Positions 20,374 to 37,244 of a stretch of DNA of 64,000 bases are shown in pieces. Location of the stretch: contig NZ_LT607750.1 of NCBI RefSeq assembly GCF_900090235.1, positions 4,951,001-5,015,000 of the forward strand. Direction: 5' to 3'. The notes below the pieces were generated by a model. The model had not been told where the DNA came from. It saw only the letters and a list, made by a program, of their open reading frames with translations, and made no database searches. Position 1 is the stretch's first letter. The number at the start of each line of letters is the position of its first letter. The position numbers and the translations under genes were made by a program. Origin of the DNA: Micromonospora echinaurantiaca. Its GTDB lineage: Bacteria; Actinomycetota; Actinomycetes; Mycobacteriales; Micromonosporaceae.

Positions 20374-21957
20374 TCAGACCCGGGTGCGGTCCAGGCCGTA
20401 GGTGAGTGCGTCGACCAGGGCGTGCCAGCTCGCCTCCACCACGTTCGGGTGCACGCCGACCGTCGTCCAGTCGCGGCCGGTGCCGTCGGCGGTCTCCAGC
20501 AGCACCCGGGTCACCGCGCCGGTGCCGGTGGTGCCCTCCAGGATCCGCACCTTGAAGTCCGCCAGCTCGAAGTCGCGCAGCTCCGGGTAGTGCCGGGCCA
20601 GGGCGACCCGCAGCGCCTCGTCCAGGGCGTTGACCGGGCCGTTCCCCTCGGCCGTGGCGATCACCCGCTCGCCGCGTACCCTGATCTTGACGGTCGCCTC
20701 GGAGACCACCGCCCCGTCTTCGCGGTGCTCCACCAGCACCCGGTACGACTCCAGCGCGAACGGCCGTACCGGGGCGGCGTCCGGCAGCTCGGAGCGGACC
20801 AGCAGCTCGAACGAGGCGTCCGCGGCCTCGAACGACCAGCCGCCGGCCTCCAGTTCCTTGACCCGCCTGGTCACCCGGGACAGCGCCTCCGGATGGCCGG
20901 CCAGATCCAGCCCGAGCTCGCGGCTCTTGAGCTCGACGCTGGCCCGGCCGGCCATCTCGGTCACCAGGATCCGCATGTCGTTGCCCACCACCTGTGGGTC
21001 CACGTGGTTGTAGAGCAGCGGATCCACCTTGATCGCGCTCGCGTGCAGCCCCGCCTTGTGGGCGAAGGCCGCGGCCCCGGCGTACGCCTGGTGGGTGTCG
21101 GGGGCGATGTTGGCGATCTCGGCGATGGCGTGGGAGACCCGCACCATCTGTTCCAGGCACCCCTCCGGTAGGACGGGCAGCCCGAGCTTGAGCTGGAGGT
21201 TGGCGACCACCGCGAAGATGTCGGCGTTGCCGGGGCGCTCGCCGTAGCCGTTCGCGGTGCCCTGGACGTGGCGCACCCCGGCCTCGACCGCGGCGACGGT
21301 GTTGGCCACCGCGCACGCGGTGTCGTTCTGGGCGTGCATGCCGAACAGTTCCGGGCCGACGCCGAGCCGGTCGGTCAGGTCGGCGATCGCCGTGGTGACC
21401 TGCGACGGGAGCATCCCGCCGTTGGTGTCGCAGAGCACCACCCGCTCGGCGCCGGCGGCCAGCGCGGTCTCCACCACGGCGGCGGTGTACGCCGGGTCGT
21501 GCCGGTAGCCGTCGAAGAAGTGCTCGCCGTCGACGAAGACCCGCCGGCCCTGGCCCACCAGGTGCGCGACGGTGTCGTGGACCATCGCGAGGTTCTCCGC
21601 GGCGGTGGTGCGCAGCGCGCGCTCGACGTGCCGCAGGTCGGCCTTGGCGACCAGGGCCACCGCCGGGGTCTGCGCGTCGAGCAGGCCGCGCACCTGCGGG
21701 TCGTCGGCGACCGCCACCCCGGCCCGCCGGGTGGCGCCGAACGCGACCAGCACCGCGTGCTTCAGGTCGAGTTCGCCGTACGCCCGGCGGAAGAACTCGG
21801 TGTCCTTGGGCACCGCGCCCGGCCAGCCGCCCTCGATGAAGCCGACGCCGAACTCGTCGAGCAGCCGGGCCACCGCGAGCTTGTCGACCACCGAGTAGCT
21901 GAGCCCCTCACGCTGCGCGCCGTCGCGCAGCGTGGTGTCGTACACCTGGAACGTCAT
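20374..21957 (-). CDS. cimA: (R)-citramalate synthase
   Basis: CimA condenses pyruvate and acetyl-CoA to citramalate, feeding 2-oxobutyrate to isoleucine without threonine. The 527-residue protein starts with YDTTLRDGAQREG, has the metal-binding FGMHAQND, and VQGTANGYGERPGNAD. A LeuA-type allosteric dimer domain occupies about residues 385-527, where isoleucine normally inhibits. Length and the GWPGA loop fit citramalate rather than isopropylmalate synthase. AAAGGA precedes the ATG. Upstream lies an attenuator with an Ile-rich leader peptide, which supports a role in isoleucine synthesis. Confidence 0.93.
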   Translation of the reverse strand: MTFQVYDTTLRDGAQREGLSYSVVDKLAVARLLDEFGVGFIEGGWPGAVPKDTEFFRRAYGELDLKHAVLVAFGATRRAGVAVADDPQVRGLLDAQTPAVALVAKADLRHVERALRTTAAENLAMVHDTVAHLVGQGRRVFVDGEHFFDGYRHDPAYTAAVVETALAAGAERVVLCDTNGGMLPSQVTTAIADLTDRLGVGPELFGMHAQNDTACAVANTVAAVEAGVRHVQGTANGYGERPGNADIFAVVANLQLKLGLPVLPEGCLEQMVRVSHAIAEIANIAPDTHQAYAGAAAFAHKAGLHASAIKVDPLLYNHVDPQVVGNDMRILVTEMAGRASVELKSRELGLDLAGHPEALSRVTRRVKELEAGGWSFEAADASFELLVRSELPDAAPVRPFALESYRVLVEHREDGAVVSEATVKIRVRGERVIATAEGNGPVNALDEALRVALARHYPELRDFELADFKVRILEGTTGTGAVTRVLLETADGTGRDWTTVGVHPNVVEASWHALVDALTYGLDRTRV

Positions 21958-21980: not shown

Positions 21981-22011
21981 AAAAAGACCCCCCGCGGGAT
22001 GCGGGAGGTCT
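21981..22011 (-). terminator. Intrinsic terminator of the cimA attenuator
   Basis: An 11-bp stem with one G-U pair (5' arm 22001-22011, 3' arm 21985-21995), a 5-nt loop and a run of five T on the minus strand (21981-21985). It ends 24 nt before the cimA ATG and 29 nt after the leader-peptide stop. GC-rich tracts between leader and terminator (a C6 run opposite the G6 in the 3' arm, and paired GCGCGC blocks at 22012-22017 and 22035-22040) offer alternative pairings. Confidence 0.85.
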
Positions 22012-22039
22012 GCGCGCTCGGCGGAGGGGGGCCGGCGCG

Positions 22040-22078
22040 CTAGCTGCGAATAATCAGGACGGTGCTGGTCACGATCAC
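22040..22078 (-). CDS. cimA leader peptide (Ile-rich)
   Basis: This 12-codon ORF encodes M-I-V-T-S-T-V-L-I-I-R-S, with GTG start and TAG stop. Six of twelve residues are Ile, Val or Leu, and the last two Ile are tandem ATT codons, unusual in a genome that prefers ATC. GGAGAG lies 10 nt upstream. The position directly before a U-tract terminator and cimA is that of a transcription-attenuation leader: ribosome stalling at Ile codons would prevent terminator formation. The peptide itself probably has no other function. Confidence 0.8.
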   Translation of the reverse strand: MIVTSTVLIIRS

Positions 22079-22293
22079 TACTCTGCCACTCTCCGTTGGT
22101 TTTGGGAGGCAAAATCCACATGTCGGGACGGTGACGCAGAGTCGCGGCCCTGCGCAGTACCCGACTTCGGGACACAATCCGCCCCCGGTGATCGACTTCA
22201 CAAATCACCCGGCCGCCATCAGGCGGAAACAACGCTGAGGAAGCATCTGGAACTGATCCAGTTACGGCCTCGTGCCGCTGTCAAGGAGGACCT

Positions 22294-22854
22294 GTGCTCA
22301 CTGTCGGTGACCGCTTCCCCGAGTACGAACTCACCGCCTGCGTGTCGCTGGAGGCCGACAAGGCGTTCGAGACGATCAACCACAAGTCCCACGAGGGCAA
22401 GTGGCGGGTGGTCTTCTTCTGGCCCAAGGACTTCACCTTCATCTGCCCCACCGAGATCGCGGAGTTCGGCCGGCTCAACGGCGAGTTCGCCGACCGGGAC
22501 GCCCAGGTCCTCGGTGTGTCGGTGGACAACGAGTACGTCCACTACGCCTGGCGCAAGGACCACCCGGACCTGCGCGAGCTGCCCTTCCCGATGCTCAGCG
22601 ACATCAAGCGCGAGCTGACCAGCGCCTGCGGCGTGCTCGGCGAGGACGGCGTGGCGCAGCGGGCGACCCTCATCGTCGACCCGAACAACGAGATCCAGTT
22701 CGCCATGGTGACCGCCGGCTCGGTCGGCCGGAACGTCTCCGAGGTGCTGCGGGTGCTGGACGCGCTGCAGACCGACGAGCTCTGCCCGTGCAACTGGAAC
22801 AAGGGGGGCGAGACGCTCGACGCCAACGCGCTCCTCGCCGGCGCCGGGGCCTGA
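22294..22854 (+). CDS. ahpC: Alkyl hydroperoxide reductase, peroxiredoxin subunit
   Basis: AhpC reduces organic peroxides, hydrogen peroxide and peroxynitrite. The 186-residue protein has the peroxidatic Cys in DFTFICPTEIAEF and the resolving Cys near the end (DELCPCNW). The GTG start follows AAGGAGGA. ahpD begins 2 nt after the stop, so both are one operon. In actinobacteria AhpD, not AhpF, is the electron donor. No oxyR gene lies nearby; a short palindrome (AACTG-ATC-CAGTT, 22251-22263) in the leader is the only operator-like sequence. Confidence 0.96.
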   Translation: MLTVGDRFPEYELTACVSLEADKAFETINHKSHEGKWRVVFFWPKDFTFICPTEIAEFGRLNGEFADRDAQVLGVSVDNEYVHYAWRKDHPDLRELPFPMLSDIKRELTSACGVLGEDGVAQRATLIVDPNNEIQFAMVTAGSVGRNVSEVLRVLDALQTDELCPCNWNKGGETLDANALLAGAGA

Positions 22855-22856
22855 GC

Positions 22857-23387
22857 ATGGGCCTGGACGCGGTCAAGGCGGCTCTGCCCGAGTACGCCAA
22901 GGACATCAAGCTCAACCTCGGCTCCACCATCGGCACCTCGACGCTGAAGCCGGAGCAGGCGTGGGGCACCGCCCTGGCCTGCGCGGTCGCCGCGCGCAAC
23001 CCGGTGGTGCTGCGGGAGATCGCCGCCGAGGCGGCCGACCACCTCAAGCCGGAGGCGATCGAGGCGGCCAAGGGCGCCGCCGCGATCATGGCGATGAACA
23101 ACGTCTACTACCGGGCCAAGCACCTGATCGGCGACGAGCAGTACCAGTCGATCCCGGCCCGGCTGCGGATGCAGATCATCGCCCGGCCCGGCGTGGAGAA
23201 GGCCGACTTCGAGCTGTGGTGCCTCGCCGTCTCGGCGATCACCGGCTGCGGCGTCTGCCTGGAGTCGCACGAGAAGACGCTGCGCGCGGCGGGCTTCAGC
23301 CGTGAGCAGGTGCACGAGGGGCTGCGGATCGCCGCGGTCGTGCACGCCGCGGCGGTCACCCTGGACGCGCAGGCAGCGCTGGCCTGA
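22857..23387 (+). CDS. ahpD: Alkyl hydroperoxidase AhpD
   Basis: AhpD is the CxxC carboxymuconolactone-decarboxylase-like partner that relays electrons from lipoyl proteins to AhpC. The 176-residue protein carries the active site CGVCLESHE and the conserved KHLIGDEQY region. The ATG at 22857 is 2 nt after the ahpC stop and in the frame that ends at 23387. Two hairpins follow, closing the operon. Confidence 0.95.
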   Translation: MGLDAVKAALPEYAKDIKLNLGSTIGTSTLKPEQAWGTALACAVAARNPVVLREIAAEAADHLKPEAIEAAKGAAAIMAMNNVYYRAKHLIGDEQYQSIPARLRMQIIARPGVEKADFELWCLAVSAITGCGVCLESHEKTLRAAGFSREQVHEGLRIAAVVHAAAVTLDAQAALA

Positions 23388-32758: not shown

Positions 32759-34645
32759 TCAGACATCGTCCTCATCGAAGACCGGGCGGACGCCGCGGGC
32801 GAACATGATCTCGTCGTTGCTGGTGCCGGCGGCGACCATCGGCCACACCATCGCGTCCTTGCCGACCACGAAGTCGATCACCACCGGGGCATCGTTGATC
32901 TCCATGGCGGCAGCGATGGTCCCGTCGACGTCCTCGGCCGTCTCGCAGCGCAGCCCGACGCAGCCGAGCGCCTCGGCGAGCTTCACGAAGTCGGGGATGC
33001 GGTGCTTGTGGGTACCGAGGTCGGTGTTGGAGTAGCGCTCCCCGTAGAACAGGGTCTGCCACTGCCGCACCATGCCGAGGTTGCCGTTGTTGATCAGGGC
33101 GATCTTGACCGGGATGCCCTCCAGGGCACAGGTGGCCAACTCCTGGTTGGTCATCTGGAAGCAGCCGTCGCCGTCCACCGCCCAGACCACCGAGTCGGGC
33201 CGGCCGACCTTGGCGCCCATCGCCGCCGGCACCGCGTAGCCCATCGTGCCGAGGCCGCCGGAGTTCAACCAGGTGTGCGGCTTCTCGTACGAGATGAACT
33301 GCGAGGCCCACATCTGGTGCTGGCCGACGCCGGCGACGTAGATGGCGTCCGGACCGGCGATCTCGCCCAGCCGCTTGATCACGTACTGCGGGGAGAGCGT
33401 GCCGTCGGCCGGCTCCTCGTAGCCCAGCGGGTAGCGCTTGCGCAGGTCGTCGAGCTGGGCCCACCAGTCGGCCAGGTCGGCACGCCGGCCGGCCTCCTGC
33501 TCCGCCGTCACCGCGCTGATCAGCTCGTCGATCACGTGCCGGGCGTCGCCGACGATCGGGACGTCGGCGTGCCGGTTCTTGCCGATCTCGGCCGGGTCGA
33601 TGTCGGCGTGCACCACCGTCGCGTCCGGGGCGAACGAGTCCAGCTTGCCGGTGACCCGGTCGTCGAAGCGCGCGCCGAGGGCCACGATCAGGTCGGCCTT
33701 CTGCAACCCGTAGACCGCGGCGACCGTGCCGTGCATGCCCGGCATGCCGAGGTGCTGCGGGTGCGAGTCGGGGAATGCACCGAGCGCCATCAGGGTGGTG
33801 ACCACCGGGATGCCGGTCAGCTCGGCCAGCCGGCGCAGCCCCTCGGTGGCGCCGGCCTTGAGCACGCCGCCGCCGACGTAGAGCACCGGCCGCCGGGCGG
33901 CGGTCATCAGCCGGGCCGCCTCCCGGATCTGCTTGCCGTGCGGGTGCAGGGTCGGCCGGTAGCCCGGCAGGTCCAGCGTCGGCGGCCAGGCGAACGTGGT
34001 GGCAGCCTGGAGGACGTCCTTCGGGATGTCGACCAGCACCGGGCCGGGCCGGCCGGTGGCGGCCAGGTGGAACGCCTCGGCCAGCACCCGCGGGATCTCG
34101 TCGGCGCTCTGCACCAGGAAGTTGTGCTTGGTGATCGGCAGGGTGATGCCCTGGATGTCCGCCTCCTGGAAGGCGTCGGTGCCGATCGACGGCCGGGCCA
34201 CCTGGCCGGTGATCGCGACCACCGGCACCGAGTCCATGTACGCGTCGGCGATCGGGGTGACCAGGTTGGTCGCGCCGGGGCCGGAGGTGGCGATGCAGAC
34301 GCCGACCTTGCCGGTGGCCTGCGCGTAACCGGTCGCCGCGTGCCCGGCGCCCTGCTCGTGCCGGACCAGGATGTGCCGGACGGTGGAGTCGTAGAGCGGG
34401 TCGTAGGCGGGCAGGATCGCGCCGCCCGGGATGCCGAAGACGACGTCCACGCCGAGCGCCTCGAGCGAGCGCACCAGCGAACCGGCGCCGGAAACCTGGG
34501 CCGGGGCGGGTGGGCGTACCCCCGGAACGGCCGGGGTGGCCGCGGCGCGGACGGCCGCGGCGTGGTCGGCGTCGCTCGCCGGCTCGGCGGCCGTGCGCGC
34601 CCGCCGGGCGGAGTGGGCGAGTGTTTCTGGCGTGGGTCTGGTCAT
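32759..34645 (-). CDS. ilvB: Acetohydroxyacid synthase large (catalytic) subunit
   Basis: IlvB is the ThDP- and FAD-dependent enzyme that makes acetolactate and acetohydroxybutyrate, the first common step to Val/Leu/Ile. The 628-residue protein has an Ala-rich N-terminal extension, then [15 protein letters not shown], the catalytic Glu in [31 protein letters not shown] and the ThDP motif [14 protein letters not shown]...NN. Transcription passes through an attenuator with a leader peptide located in the 180 bp upstream. Confidence 0.97.
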
Positions 34646-34733: not shown

Positions 34734-34763
34734 AAAAAAGCCCTCGTGCAGGATGCACGGGGC
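34734..34763 (-). terminator. Intrinsic terminator of the ilvB attenuator
   Basis: The 5' arm (34754-34763) and 3' arm (34740-34750) form 6 bp, a bulged A, and 4 bp around a 3-nt loop, followed by six T on the minus strand (34734-34739). It lies 88 nt before the ilvB ATG. Confidence 0.85.
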
Positions 34764-34765
34764 CA

Positions 34766-34792
34766 GCGCACTCTCAGCGGAGGAGAGTGCGC
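34766..34792 (-). promoter_or_regulatory. Leader hairpin of the ilvB attenuator
   Basis: A 10-bp perfect stem (GCGCACTCTC/GAGAGTGCGC) with a 7-nt loop starts at the base after the leader-peptide stop and ends 3 nt before the terminator. A ribosome at the stop codon would block it, as expected for a pause or anti-antiterminator hairpin. Confidence 0.7.
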
Positions 34793-34822
34793 TCAGGTAA
34801 GTACTCGCAGCGACCGGGACAT
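34793..34822 (-). CDS. ilvB leader peptide
   Basis: The 9-residue ORF encodes M-S-R-S-L-R-V-L-T with ATG start and TGA stop. Two Leu and one Val are regulated amino acids. No Shine-Dalgarno is present; the promoter at 34830-34858 would start transcription at the A of ATG, so the leader is probably translated as a leaderless mRNA. The arrangement leader-hairpin-terminator-ilvB is classical attenuation. Confidence 0.75.
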   Translation of the reverse strand: MSRSLRVLT

Positions 34823-34826
34823 GGGG

Positions 34827-37244
34827 TCAAGCCTGACGCATCTCACGCGATGAGTCAACTGATCCCACATGTTGGTTAACGGACTTCGGCGCGTCGCCGC
34901 CCGACACGCCTGCGGCACCCGGCCCGACCTGCCCGGACGCGGCCTCGGCCGGGCGCGGGGCGGGCGGCCGGACCGGCCCGACCACCGGCGGGGTCGGGAA
35001 CGGGGCGGACGGCCGGGCCGGGCGGGCGCCCGGCGAGGTGGCCGCCTCCAGCATCGCCTCCAGGTGCTCGGCCGGTACGCCCCAGCCGCAGAGCGCGCCC
35101 TGGCCGAACCGGCAGCCGGCGGCGACCACCGCGGCCAGCTCGGCCGGGGTGGTCACCCCCTCGGCGATCACCTCCAGACCGAACTGGTGGCCGAGCCGCA
35201 TCACGATGTCGACCATCGGCGCGAACGCGGGACCGTCCCGCCCCACCGGCCGGACCGGCTCGTGCTCGGCGACCAGGCTGTGGTCGATCTTGAGGATGTC
35301 GATCGGCAGGCGGCGCAGCTGCCCGAGCGACGAGTAGCCGGCTCCGAAGTCGTCCAGCGCGATCCGCACCCCGGTCAGCCGCAGCGCGGTCAGCCGGCGG
35401 ATCAGCTCGTCGAGGTCGGTGGCCACGGCGTGCTCGGTGACCTCCAGCACCAGCCGCTGCGGCGGGACGTGGTGGGCGCGCAACGCCTCGGCCACCTGCA
35501 CCACGTACTCCGGGGCGTGCAGTTCACGTGGCGAGACGTTCACCGACACCCAGACGTCGTGCCCGTCGGCCAGCCAGCGGGAGAGCTGGTGGCACGCCTG
35601 GTGCAGCACCCAGGCGCCGAGCTTGGCGATCATCCCGCACTCCTCGGCCAGCGGGATGAACTCGTCCGGGCGGACGTTGCCCAGCTGCGGGTGGTGCCAG
35701 CGCAGCAGCGCCTCCGCGCCGACCGGGCGTACCGAGGGCAGCGAGGCGACCGGCTGGAACACCAGCCGCAGCTCGTCGCGCTCGATCGCGCCGCGCAGCT
35801 CGTGCTCCAGCGTGGTACGCCGGCGCAGCAGCTGGTCGTAGGCCGCGTCGTAGCGCTCGATCCGGTTCTTGCCACGCTGCTTGGCGTGCCGCAGCGCCAG
35901 GTCGGCGTGGCGCTGGAGCAGCTCCACGTCGGGCTCCCCGGCCCAGCCGGCCAGCCCGATGCTCACCGAGAGGAAGACCGGCCCCTCGGACTGGTCGTAG
36001 GCGCGGCCGAGCACACCGAGCAGCCGCTCGGCGACCCGGTCCGCCTCGGCCGGGCGGCCGTGCAGCAGCACCGCGAACTCGTCCCCGCCGAGCCGGGCGG
36101 CCACGTCGCCGGGGCGCAGGTTGCCGCGCAGCCGCCGGCCCACCTCGGCCAGCACCGCGTCGCCCACGTCGTGGCCGCGCATGTCGTTGACGTTCTTGAA
36201 GCCGTCCAGGTCGAGGCCGAGCAGCACGCACGGGGTGCCGGCCGCGGCGCAGCGGTGCAGCGCGCGGAGCAGCCCGCGCCGGTTGGCCAGCCCGGTGAGC
36301 GCGTCGGTGTGCGCCAGCTCGCGGAAGTGCGCCTCCCGCTCGGCCAGCCGGCCGGCGTAGCCGCGCACGTCGTGCAGGGTCAGGAACTGCCGGGTCACCA
36401 GGGCGAAGCCCTCCACGCTGCCGGCCGCGACGGCCAGCGCGCCGAACCGGCCGTCCTGGGACAGGTGGTAGACCGCGGAGGCGGCCATCGCGACGATCGG
36501 GAGCAGGGCGTACTCGCCGTCGCGGCCGATCAGGTCGAGGTCGGCCCGGTCCGGCGGGTCGACCCGGCGCAGCGCCAGCGCCCCGGTGAGCGCCCCGGCG
36601 GCGAGCAACGCCGCCGAGCTCACCGCCACCGTCGGCCCGGCCTGGCAGAGACCGGTCGCCATGCCCATCCCGCCGCAGGTCAGCGCGATGGCACCGGCGC
36701 CGGCGGCGGCGAGTCGGGCGCGCGACTGCGGCGCGCGGAAGACCACGATGAGGGCCACCCCGGCGGTGAGCGCCGCGGCCACCGTGGCGATCAGGATCGC
36801 CGGGCAGGCCATCGGGGTGGCGTCGCCGAGCAGCCGGGTCGGCTCGGTGAAGAGCACCCAGCCGACGAACCAGAGCGCGCCGGCCATGATCAGCCCGTCG
36901 AGGACCAGCCGGGCAGCCGCCGCGCGGGTCGGGGCGACGCCGGGCAGTCGGAGCAGCCCGGCGCAGAAGAGCAGCCCGCCGGCCGCGGTGCCGACCGAGA
37001 CCAGCGTGGCCCAGTCGGTGCGGGAGCCCTGCTCGTGCTCCCAGTGCGCGGCCGCGTCGGACACCTCGGCGAGGCCGACCAGCACGGTCGCCACCGCCAC
37101 CGCCCCGGCGGCGGCGAAGAGCAGGTGGGCCGGGCGCCGGGGGGCCGCGCGCCGCCGGGCGGTGGCGGCCAGCAGCACCGCGGCCGAGGCGGTCGCGAGC
37201 CCGCTCAGCACCGCTACCGCGACCATGCCCGGGGGGAGATGCAC
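34827..37244 (-). CDS. Membrane GGDEF-EAL protein (c-di-GMP synthase/phosphodiesterase)
   Basis: The 805-residue protein has about eight N-terminal membrane segments (residues 1-290), a GGDEF domain (~310-475) with intact RLGGDEFAVL, and an EAL domain (~485-735) with EALLRW, VSVNVSPRE, LEVTEHA, LDDFGAGYSSL, ILKIDHSL, AEGVTT and QGALCGW. All catalytic residues of both domains are present, so both making and breaking c-di-GMP are possible. The Pro/Ala-rich tail ends inside the ilvB promoter. The GTG start is preceded by CAGAGT at 6 nt. It is divergent from ilvD. Confidence 0.93.
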   Translation of the reverse strand: MHLPPGMVAVAVLSGLATASAAVLLAATARRRAAPRRPAHLLFAAAGAVAVATVLVGLAEVSDAAAHWEHEQGSRTDWATLVSVGTAAGGLLFCAGLLRLPGVAPTRAAAARLVLDGLIMAGALWFVGWVLFTEPTRLLGDATPMACPAILIATVAAALTAGVALIVVFRAPQSRARLAAAGAGAIALTCGGMGMATGLCQAGPTVAVSSAALLAAGALTGALALRRVDPPDRADLDLIGRDGEYALLPIVAMAASAVYHLSQDGRFGALAVAAGSVEGFALVTRQFLTLHDVRGYAGRLAEREAHFRELAHTDALTGLANRRGLLRALHRCAAAGTPCVLLGLDLDGFKNVNDMRGHDVGDAVLAEVGRRLRGNLRPGDVAARLGGDEFAVLLHGRPAEADRVAERLLGVLGRAYDQSEGPVFLSVSIGLAGWAGEPDVELLQRHADLALRHAKQRGKNRIERYDAAYDQLLRRRTTLEHELRGAIERDELRLVFQPVASLPSVRPVGAEALLRWHHPQLGNVRPDEFIPLAEECGMIAKLGAWVLHQACHQLSRWLADGHDVWVSVNVSPRELHAPEYVVQVAEALRAHHVPPQRLVLEVTEHAVATDLDELIRRLTALRLTGVRIALDDFGAGYSSLGQLRRLPIDILKIDHSLVAEHEPVRPVGRDGPAFAPMVDIVMRLGHQFGLEVIAEGVTTPAELAAVVAAGCRFGQGALCGWGVPAEHLEAMLEAATSPGARPARPSAPFPTPPVVGPVRPPAPRPAEAASGQVGPGAAGVSGGDAPKSVNQHVGSVDSSREMRQA
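34830..34858 (-). promoter_or_regulatory. ilvB promoter nested in the 3' end of the GGDEF-EAL gene
   Basis: TTGACT (34853-34858), a 17-bp spacer and CAGGCT (34830-34835) lie on the minus strand, 7 nt upstream of the leader-peptide ATG. The whole promoter is inside the last codons of the upstream gene, whose stop is at 34827-34829. Confidence 0.7.

Follow-up and report, generated by a model that had tools for sequence, protein, structure and literature searches.

The cimA gene of Micromonospora echinaurantiaca is preceded by a short element that is likely to be a ribosome-controlled transcription attenuator sensing the supply of isoleucyl-tRNA. The element lies in the window analysed here, i.e., a stretch of 64,000 nucleotides belonging to a genome made up of one contig of 7.2 Mb, and its parts follow one another, from 5' to 3' on the minus strand, in the order: -10-like box, GTG codon, ten codons, TAG stop, hairpin A:B, intrinsic terminator C:D, and ATG of cimA (Table 1). 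The comparison of related sequences shows the conservation of the leader, its reading phase, its isoleucine codons, both hairpins, and the fixed spacing between them. An attenuator had been proposed at this place in an earlier note on the same DNA, made from the sequence alone; this interpretation is supported by the data reported below, from which we infer the control of read-through by isoleucine.

The identity of cimA as a citramalate synthase gene was assigned by profile search (TIGR00977, 601.9 bits vs. a cut-off of 450); the best named match among those listed was from Micromonospora thermarum (94% identity). Genes about 66% identical to the cimA of the window also occur in two records (L140 and L144) titled as Bifidobacterium breve MAGs, whose titles may be wrong. 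A divergent pair of genes lies beside the cimA promoter (22294-23387, plus strand), coding for an AhpC-like peroxiredoxin (134 bits, well under the AhpC cut-off of 272) and for AhpD (259.7 bits vs. a cut-off of 191.95).

Table 1. Features of the cimA element and of its ilvB counterpart, with their positions in the window and the basis of each assignment.
Feature	Position	Strand	Basis
cimA, citramalate synthase; downstream gene controlled in the proposed switch	20374..21957	-	TIGR00977
Intrinsic terminator C:D with T-run, adjoining hairpin A:B	21981..22011	-	terminator scan, fold, paired changes
Hairpin A:B (arm A 22040-22031, arm B 22022-22012)	22012..22040	-	fold, paired changes
Leader stop TAG	22042-22040	-	sequence
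Tandem ATT-ATT isoleucine codons, proposed sensor	22049..22054	-	isoleucine codons in relatives
Leader ORF, ten codons (M-T-S-T-V-L-I-I-R-S) plus TAG	22040..22072	-	sequence, phase in relatives
-10-like hexamer CAGAGT, putative leader promoter	22080..22085 (22085-22080)	-	[TCG]ANNNT spacing in relatives
ilvB	32759-34645		TIGR00118, 777.3 bits
ilvB sister element	34734..34835	-	sequence, layout in relatives
ilvB sister terminator	34764-34734	-	sequence
ilvB sister hairpin	34792-34766	-	sequence
ilvB sister leader MSRSLRVLT	34822-34793	-	sequence
ilvB sister -10-like CAGGCT	34835-34830	-	sequence

A cimA match was retrieved from 197 out of the 200 Micromonosporaceae genomes sampled, and 100 of the corresponding upstream regions were examined, namely 30 loci from the genus (the genome itself and 29 others) and 70 hand-picked for genus spread, all drawn from the better-matching cimA genes listed, with the weakest matches outside the set. 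The leader, hairpin A:B, and the terminator were found in all 100 regions. In 91 of them, the leader start has a hexamer [TCG]ANNNT at a distance of exactly 7 nt on its 5' side; since this -10-like hexamer would place the start of transcription at or beside the GTG, the leader message is probably leaderless, and its most likely start is the second GTG (22072). The 12-codon ORF with three isoleucine codons described in the earlier note is present as a frame from GTG to TAG (22078-22040), and ten codons are the likelier length on the basis of the hexamer spacing. Because of the position of the -10 box, the first two codons and one of the three isoleucine codons are probably untranscribed, which leaves the tandem ATT. 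Likewise, the GGAGAG (22094-22089) that had been read as a Shine-Dalgarno sequence sits in, and probably belongs to, the promoter spacer, as those first two codons probably belong to the promoter; Shine-Dalgarno-like 4-mers occur 5-14 nt upstream of the leader start in 2 of the 100 Micromonosporaceae regions.

After correction of five of the 100 leader starts, which preceded the length and codon counts, 97 leaders are 8-12 codons long and three have 16 codons; the start codon is GTG in 99 and ATG in one. In the three 16-codon leaders (L086, L099, and L102), a change in the usual TAG lets the ORF run on to a stop inside the hairpin, an arrangement also seen in many other families.

Moreover, in the 97 regions out of 100 where the -10 box was found, its distance from the isoleucine codons is 16, 19, 22, 25, 28, or 31 nt in 94; such steps of three are the pattern of a translated frame. 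This bears on the possibility that what is conserved is a promoter with a terminator, or the operator of a protein, the ORF being incidental. The strong nucleotide-level conservation of the promoter and of the hairpin cores in the alignment would fit this idea, which we nonetheless consider extremely unlikely: the indels between the -10 box and the isoleucine codons are multiples of three in those 94 cases, isoleucine is retained across ATT/ATC changes in the leaders of relatives, and the identity of the codons switches with the gene (Ile-Ile for cimA, GTA-CTT for ilvB).

The expectation of the earlier note that the leader should be conserved and isoleucine-rich in relatives was borne out. All 100 Micromonosporaceae leaders carry at least one isoleucine codon and 96 carry two or more (one in 4 leaders, two in 89, three in 6, and four in 1), and the distance from the last one to the stop is exactly two codons in 92; the element would therefore include a small ORF that is translated and in which codons for the amino acid made by the pathway abound. 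ATT accounts for 184 of the 204 isoleucine codons of these leaders. In cimA genes of the same genus (L005-L033), it accounts for 3 of 430, and five window genes have no ATT among their 54 isoleucine codons.

Hairpin A:B opens at the G of the leader TAG stop and corresponds to the two GCGCGC blocks that the earlier note had listed among alternative pairings. It is followed by the terminator, which the terminator scan resolved into the stem of 11 pairs (22011-21985) and the T-run described in that note, with 23 nt from the T-run to the cimA ATG (21957); an intrinsic terminator is predicted between the leader ORF and the gene in 100 of 100 relatives. The fold of the 128-nt leader is more stable than those of its dinucleotide shuffles (z = -5.9; none of 200 shuffles was as good). 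No Rfam family, T-box models included, reached its cut-off in the leader region; a relaxed Rfam search of the leader yielded three matches, all far under their cut-offs.

The two hairpins were then compared in an alignment of 68 of the 94 distinct Micromonosporaceae elements. RNAalifold returned both of them, with 15 pairs, six of which are changed on both sides; when the full A:B plus C:D structure was specified, 93.4% of the cells paired. According to the latter structure, 10 out of 21 pairs changed on both sides vs. a mean of 3.1 in shuffled alignments (0 of 500 as high, with shuffles that ignore the relatedness of the sequences). The number of further pair types is only slightly above that of the shuffles (14 vs. 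11.8; 34 of 500 as high), and sliding the structure by one column (+1) gave more double-change cells (35 vs. 18), yet just 45.9% of the cells paired. About 71-79% of the sequences have the inner A:B pairs, a figure partly due to a one-base alignment shift in some lineages. One terminator pair (alignment column 85) is U-G in 59 of the 68 sequences and U-A in 9, and never C-G, despite the GC-rich genomes. In many Micromonosporaceae folds, leader bases form an enclosing helix with a GUUGC lying after the U-tract; this helix was set aside because it requires RNA past the termination site.

The gap between A:B and the terminator is 0-1 nt in all 100 Micromonosporaceae regions, which, being selected by cimA from the better-matching genes listed, are the only unbiased set for this feature. 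Outside the family, where the loci were picked by a covariance model that already encodes the spacing, the gap is 0-1 nt in 90 and 0-2 nt in all of 91 other cimA elements, and 0-2 nt in 17 of 18 elements not associated with cimA. As a rough control, we considered 32 unrelated terminator-like sites (37 sites sorted as other, minus five mis-sorted elements: L030, L138, L158, and L119 twice): a stable hairpin lies within 0-1 nt of the terminator at 7 of them, vs. 111 of 130 element-like sites. Since 7 of the 32 unrelated sites show an abutting hairpin, the adjacency of the two structures says little by itself where the DNA is GC-rich.

The constancy of the gap is relevant to a further explanation, according to which A:B would only make the polymerase pause and so keep it in step with the ribosome, antitermination taking place elsewhere or the terminator being constitutive. 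The E. coli trp attenuator uses an RNA polymerase pause hairpin and offers a precedent, and a polymerase held by A:B would stand in the C arm; pausing alone, however, yields no read-through and has no need of a constant gap of 0-1 nt, and we consider this explanation very unlikely.

The following scenario can be depicted, in which the leaderless start, the geometry of the ribosome on the leader, the response to isoleucine with its sign, and the steric step are inferred. Transcription would begin at or beside the GTG, and the ten-codon leader would be translated leaderless. When isoleucine is ample, the ribosome would reach the stop codon and sit on arm A, keeping A:B open; the terminator C:D would form and RNA polymerase would halt ahead of cimA. 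During a shortage of isoleucyl-tRNA, translation would stall at the two rare ATT codons, with the leading edge of the ribosome touching only the start of A, and A:B would fold; placed at the base of the terminator, the folded hairpin would hinder the closure of C:D in the RNA exit channel, allowing read-through into cimA. The sign of this response is taken by analogy from published work on ilvB, mainly the mycobacterial ilvB1, and the steric step, that is, the hindrance of terminator closure by A:B, is proposed tentatively, as less likely than not.

A:B and C:D have no bases in common, and in the isoleucine-stalled state the terminator belongs to the minimum-energy fold in 100 of the 100 regions; when its pairs are penalised, its loss costs 6.4-21.8 kcal/mol (median 19.2). 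With arm A masked, as by a ribosome at the stop, the terminator remains best in 98 of 100 and its loss costs 0.3-17.3 kcal/mol (median 6.3), the lower cost being due to the A:B loop, which can pair with D. These energies imply that base-pair competition fails to explain antitermination by stalling at the isoleucine codons and, taken alone, leans the opposite way.

Energy folding with the penalty, which is pseudoknot-free, predicted no competitive overlapping antiterminator, i.e., none of comparable stability of the classical trp type, in the 100 Micromonosporaceae regions. A trp-type design might still operate through a base-sharing antiterminator that the energy calculation misses, such as a pseudoknot, a kinetic trap, or a structure in which few bases are shared. 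The last case resembles ilvBNC of C. glutamicum, whose antiterminator lies next to the terminator with GCC in common, according to the part of the article available (PMC11857589), and in many of our sequences D can be drawn in a pairing with the loop or in an enclosing one. On the other hand, mismatches keep A:B from growing outwards into the terminator in the sequences inspected, and the best alternative in the isoleucine-stalled state is worse by the 6.4-21.8 kcal/mol given above (pseudoknot-free calculation); we hold this design to be unlikely.

The same energies could suggest a reverse logic, in which A:B acts as an anti-antiterminator, stalling at isoleucine codons favours termination, and full translation leads to read-through. 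With A masked, the loop does pair with D and the median advantage of the terminator falls to 6.3 from 19.2 kcal/mol; nevertheless, in 98 of 100 no other fold beats the terminator, and the C-rich loop is unconserved, with at least five consecutive C in 12 of the 100 regions. The pairing of six C with six G of the terminator, put forward in the earlier note, is likewise not conserved. The reverse logic would, furthermore, switch off a biosynthetic gene during starvation, and M. tuberculosis ilvB1 acts the opposite way in the available part of the report (PMC13236596), so we give it a very low probability. The attenuator with a steric step, in turn, would represent a second actinobacterial design, in which a hairpin governed by the ribosome blocks the terminator without base-pair competition and whose codons are interchangeable, shared by cimA, ilvB, and some leuA genes; we advance this generalisation as a possibility, less likely than not.

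The phylogenetic distribution of the element was analysed with a covariance model built from the cimA leader element and used on genomes and loci. In the own genome, a search with E up to 10 gave one copy, at cimA only, with no paralogue. In a phylum sample, 42 of 296 genomes matched at E 0.01 or better. Out of 30 loci fetched from this sample, 12 lie ahead of cimA (two in Micromonosporaceae and ten outside); in 11 of the other 18, the downstream frame has the start of an acetolactate synthase, and all four candidates tested scored above the TIGR00118 cut-off. The element of locus L116 precedes leuA, with the leader MSQNLLLT (Leu-Leu-Leu), and, by eye, those of L124 and L130 sit before other genes.

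Starting instead from cimA, the element is directly upstream of the gene in 81 of 110 further loci. Among 80 named loci with a cimA relative, 59 have it (E 1.7e-4 or better; four of the 59 are from Micromonosporaceae), and so do 22 of the 30 best-scoring loci of a class sample, where cimA is present in 234 of 296 genomes. The other genera harboring it include Streptomyces, Amycolatopsis, Kutzneria, Nonomuraea, Pseudonocardia, Cellulomonas, Kribbella, and Demequina; it is not genus-wide, as one Streptomyces locus (L207) and one from Nakamurella (L175) are misses. The upstream region is readable in 28 of the 29 loci without a model match. In 16 of them, cimA follows a frame with an ilvE-like end (by eye), and for this reason no leader of its own is expected. 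Twelve lack this explanation: five share a V(R/L)P(Y/F)DPESLHI start and seven are unexplained. One of these seven (L210, Nitriliruptorales) has another isoleucine-rich frame, seen by eye (MPVELTIIIRPLP), without a clear terminator.

The starts of the 81 leaders were called by a script that prefers a position 5-9 nt behind a -10-like hexamer, present in 60 of the 81, and several are probably called too far upstream. Their isoleucine codons are 109 ATT and 93 ATC, and those of the cimA genes in the named-locus set are 189 ATT, 1168 ATC, and 17 ATA. Sorted by the end of the peptide, 45 leaders have their stop just behind arm A and 33 have it at or before A, with 3 at other places. The footprint of a ribosome extends about 11-15 nt past the P-site codon, and on this basis a ribosome at either of the two main stop positions would cover A, and one at the isoleucine codons would leave most of A free.

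A sister element was found in the window by inspecting the region upstream of ilvB, and not by the covariance model (Table 1). Its leader carries the rare codons GTA-CTT (Val-Leu), and its hairpin, located at the leader stop, is followed by one unpaired base and then by the terminator. The ilvB gene is present in 38 of 41 Micromonosporaceae genomes, and 30 loci were fetched; the script found a terminator in 26, all of which show, by eye, GTA-CTT before the stop and the following hairpin, and one of the remaining four (L273) still shows the leader. The presence of GTA-CTT at ilvB vs. Ile-Ile at cimA implies that the regulatory codons vary with the gene and the layout stays constant. The elements of both genes have the stop at A, hairpin A:B, a gap of 0-2 nt, and a terminator, and we propose to group them as actinobacterial abutting-hairpin attenuators of branched-chain amino acid genes. 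The leuA gene of the same genome (L251, 1240-1320) has a leader (MWRAFLLLGCRDEA) and a hairpin with no evident terminator, like LEU elements.

Among the closest known systems is M. tuberculosis ilvB1, which, in the available part of its description, shares a short ORF with branched-chain amino acid codons, the masking of an anti-terminator by a ribosome that has reached the stop, and a Rho-independent terminator, and differs from the cimA element in its mixed L-V-V-I codons, longer leader, and different gene (PMC13236596). In the proposal of its authors, a ribosome stalled at L-V-V-I allows the anti-terminator, and the change of L-V-V-I to alanine gave low, dose-independent expression, as far as the same source can be followed (PMC13236596). 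In eight genomes of the same order, taken as Mycobacteriaceae, we found L-V-V-I in five of the eight; a hairpin abuts the terminator with zero gap in four of the eight folds, the gap is 5 in another, and three fold otherwise in the cut window. The C. glutamicum ilvBNC attenuator and the ilvB-II motif, in the accessible portions of the two papers, likewise have a leader peptide, in which CUU and GUA serve as the control codons, and hairpins on adjacent bases, and a leaderless start is discussed for them; unlike the cimA element, ilvBNC has an antiterminator and a terminator that share GCC, three hairpins, and a different gene (PMC11857589, PMC10272879).

Leaderless short ORFs are also described in S. 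lividans before ilvBHC, leuA, leuS, trpE, and other genes, several of them with hairpins and a U-rich stretch; Table 4 of that work, on leaderless leader peptides, has no cimA entry in the available text (PMC8079986). The word cimA is absent from PMC1262725, PMC8079986, PMC10272879, PMC11109978, and PMC13236596 in the text available, and the literature searched (titles and the starts of abstracts, with subscription papers mostly outside) gave no report of an actinobacterial cimA attenuator; an earlier mention of the cimA leader elsewhere is possible, e.g., in Wolf et al. 2017, which is cited for leader peptides in the accessible part of PMC8079986.

LEU elements, as far as the available part of their description goes, resemble the cimA element in having an amino-acid-specific leader, and their leuA belongs to the enzyme superfamily of cimA; their description includes a pseudoknot but no terminator, unlike the cimA element, whose terminator is strong (PMC1262725). 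The cimA leader, isoleucine-rich and with a terminator present, does not fit a LEU element, which would have a leucine-codon leader, a pseudoknot, and no terminator. In the S. coelicolor ilvB leader, codon substitutions left regulation unaffected, which counts against codon sensing, according to the available text of PMC1262725. Abutting hairpins that do not overlap raise the question of how one hairpin silences its neighbour without common bases, and this design may bear on the odd results obtained in S. coelicolor when codons of the ilvB and leuA leaders were substituted (cited in PMC1262725, available in part). If the scenario proposed here is true, the cimA element would represent an isoleucine-specific control point on the citramalate route, common to many actinobacterial families, including antibiotic producers.
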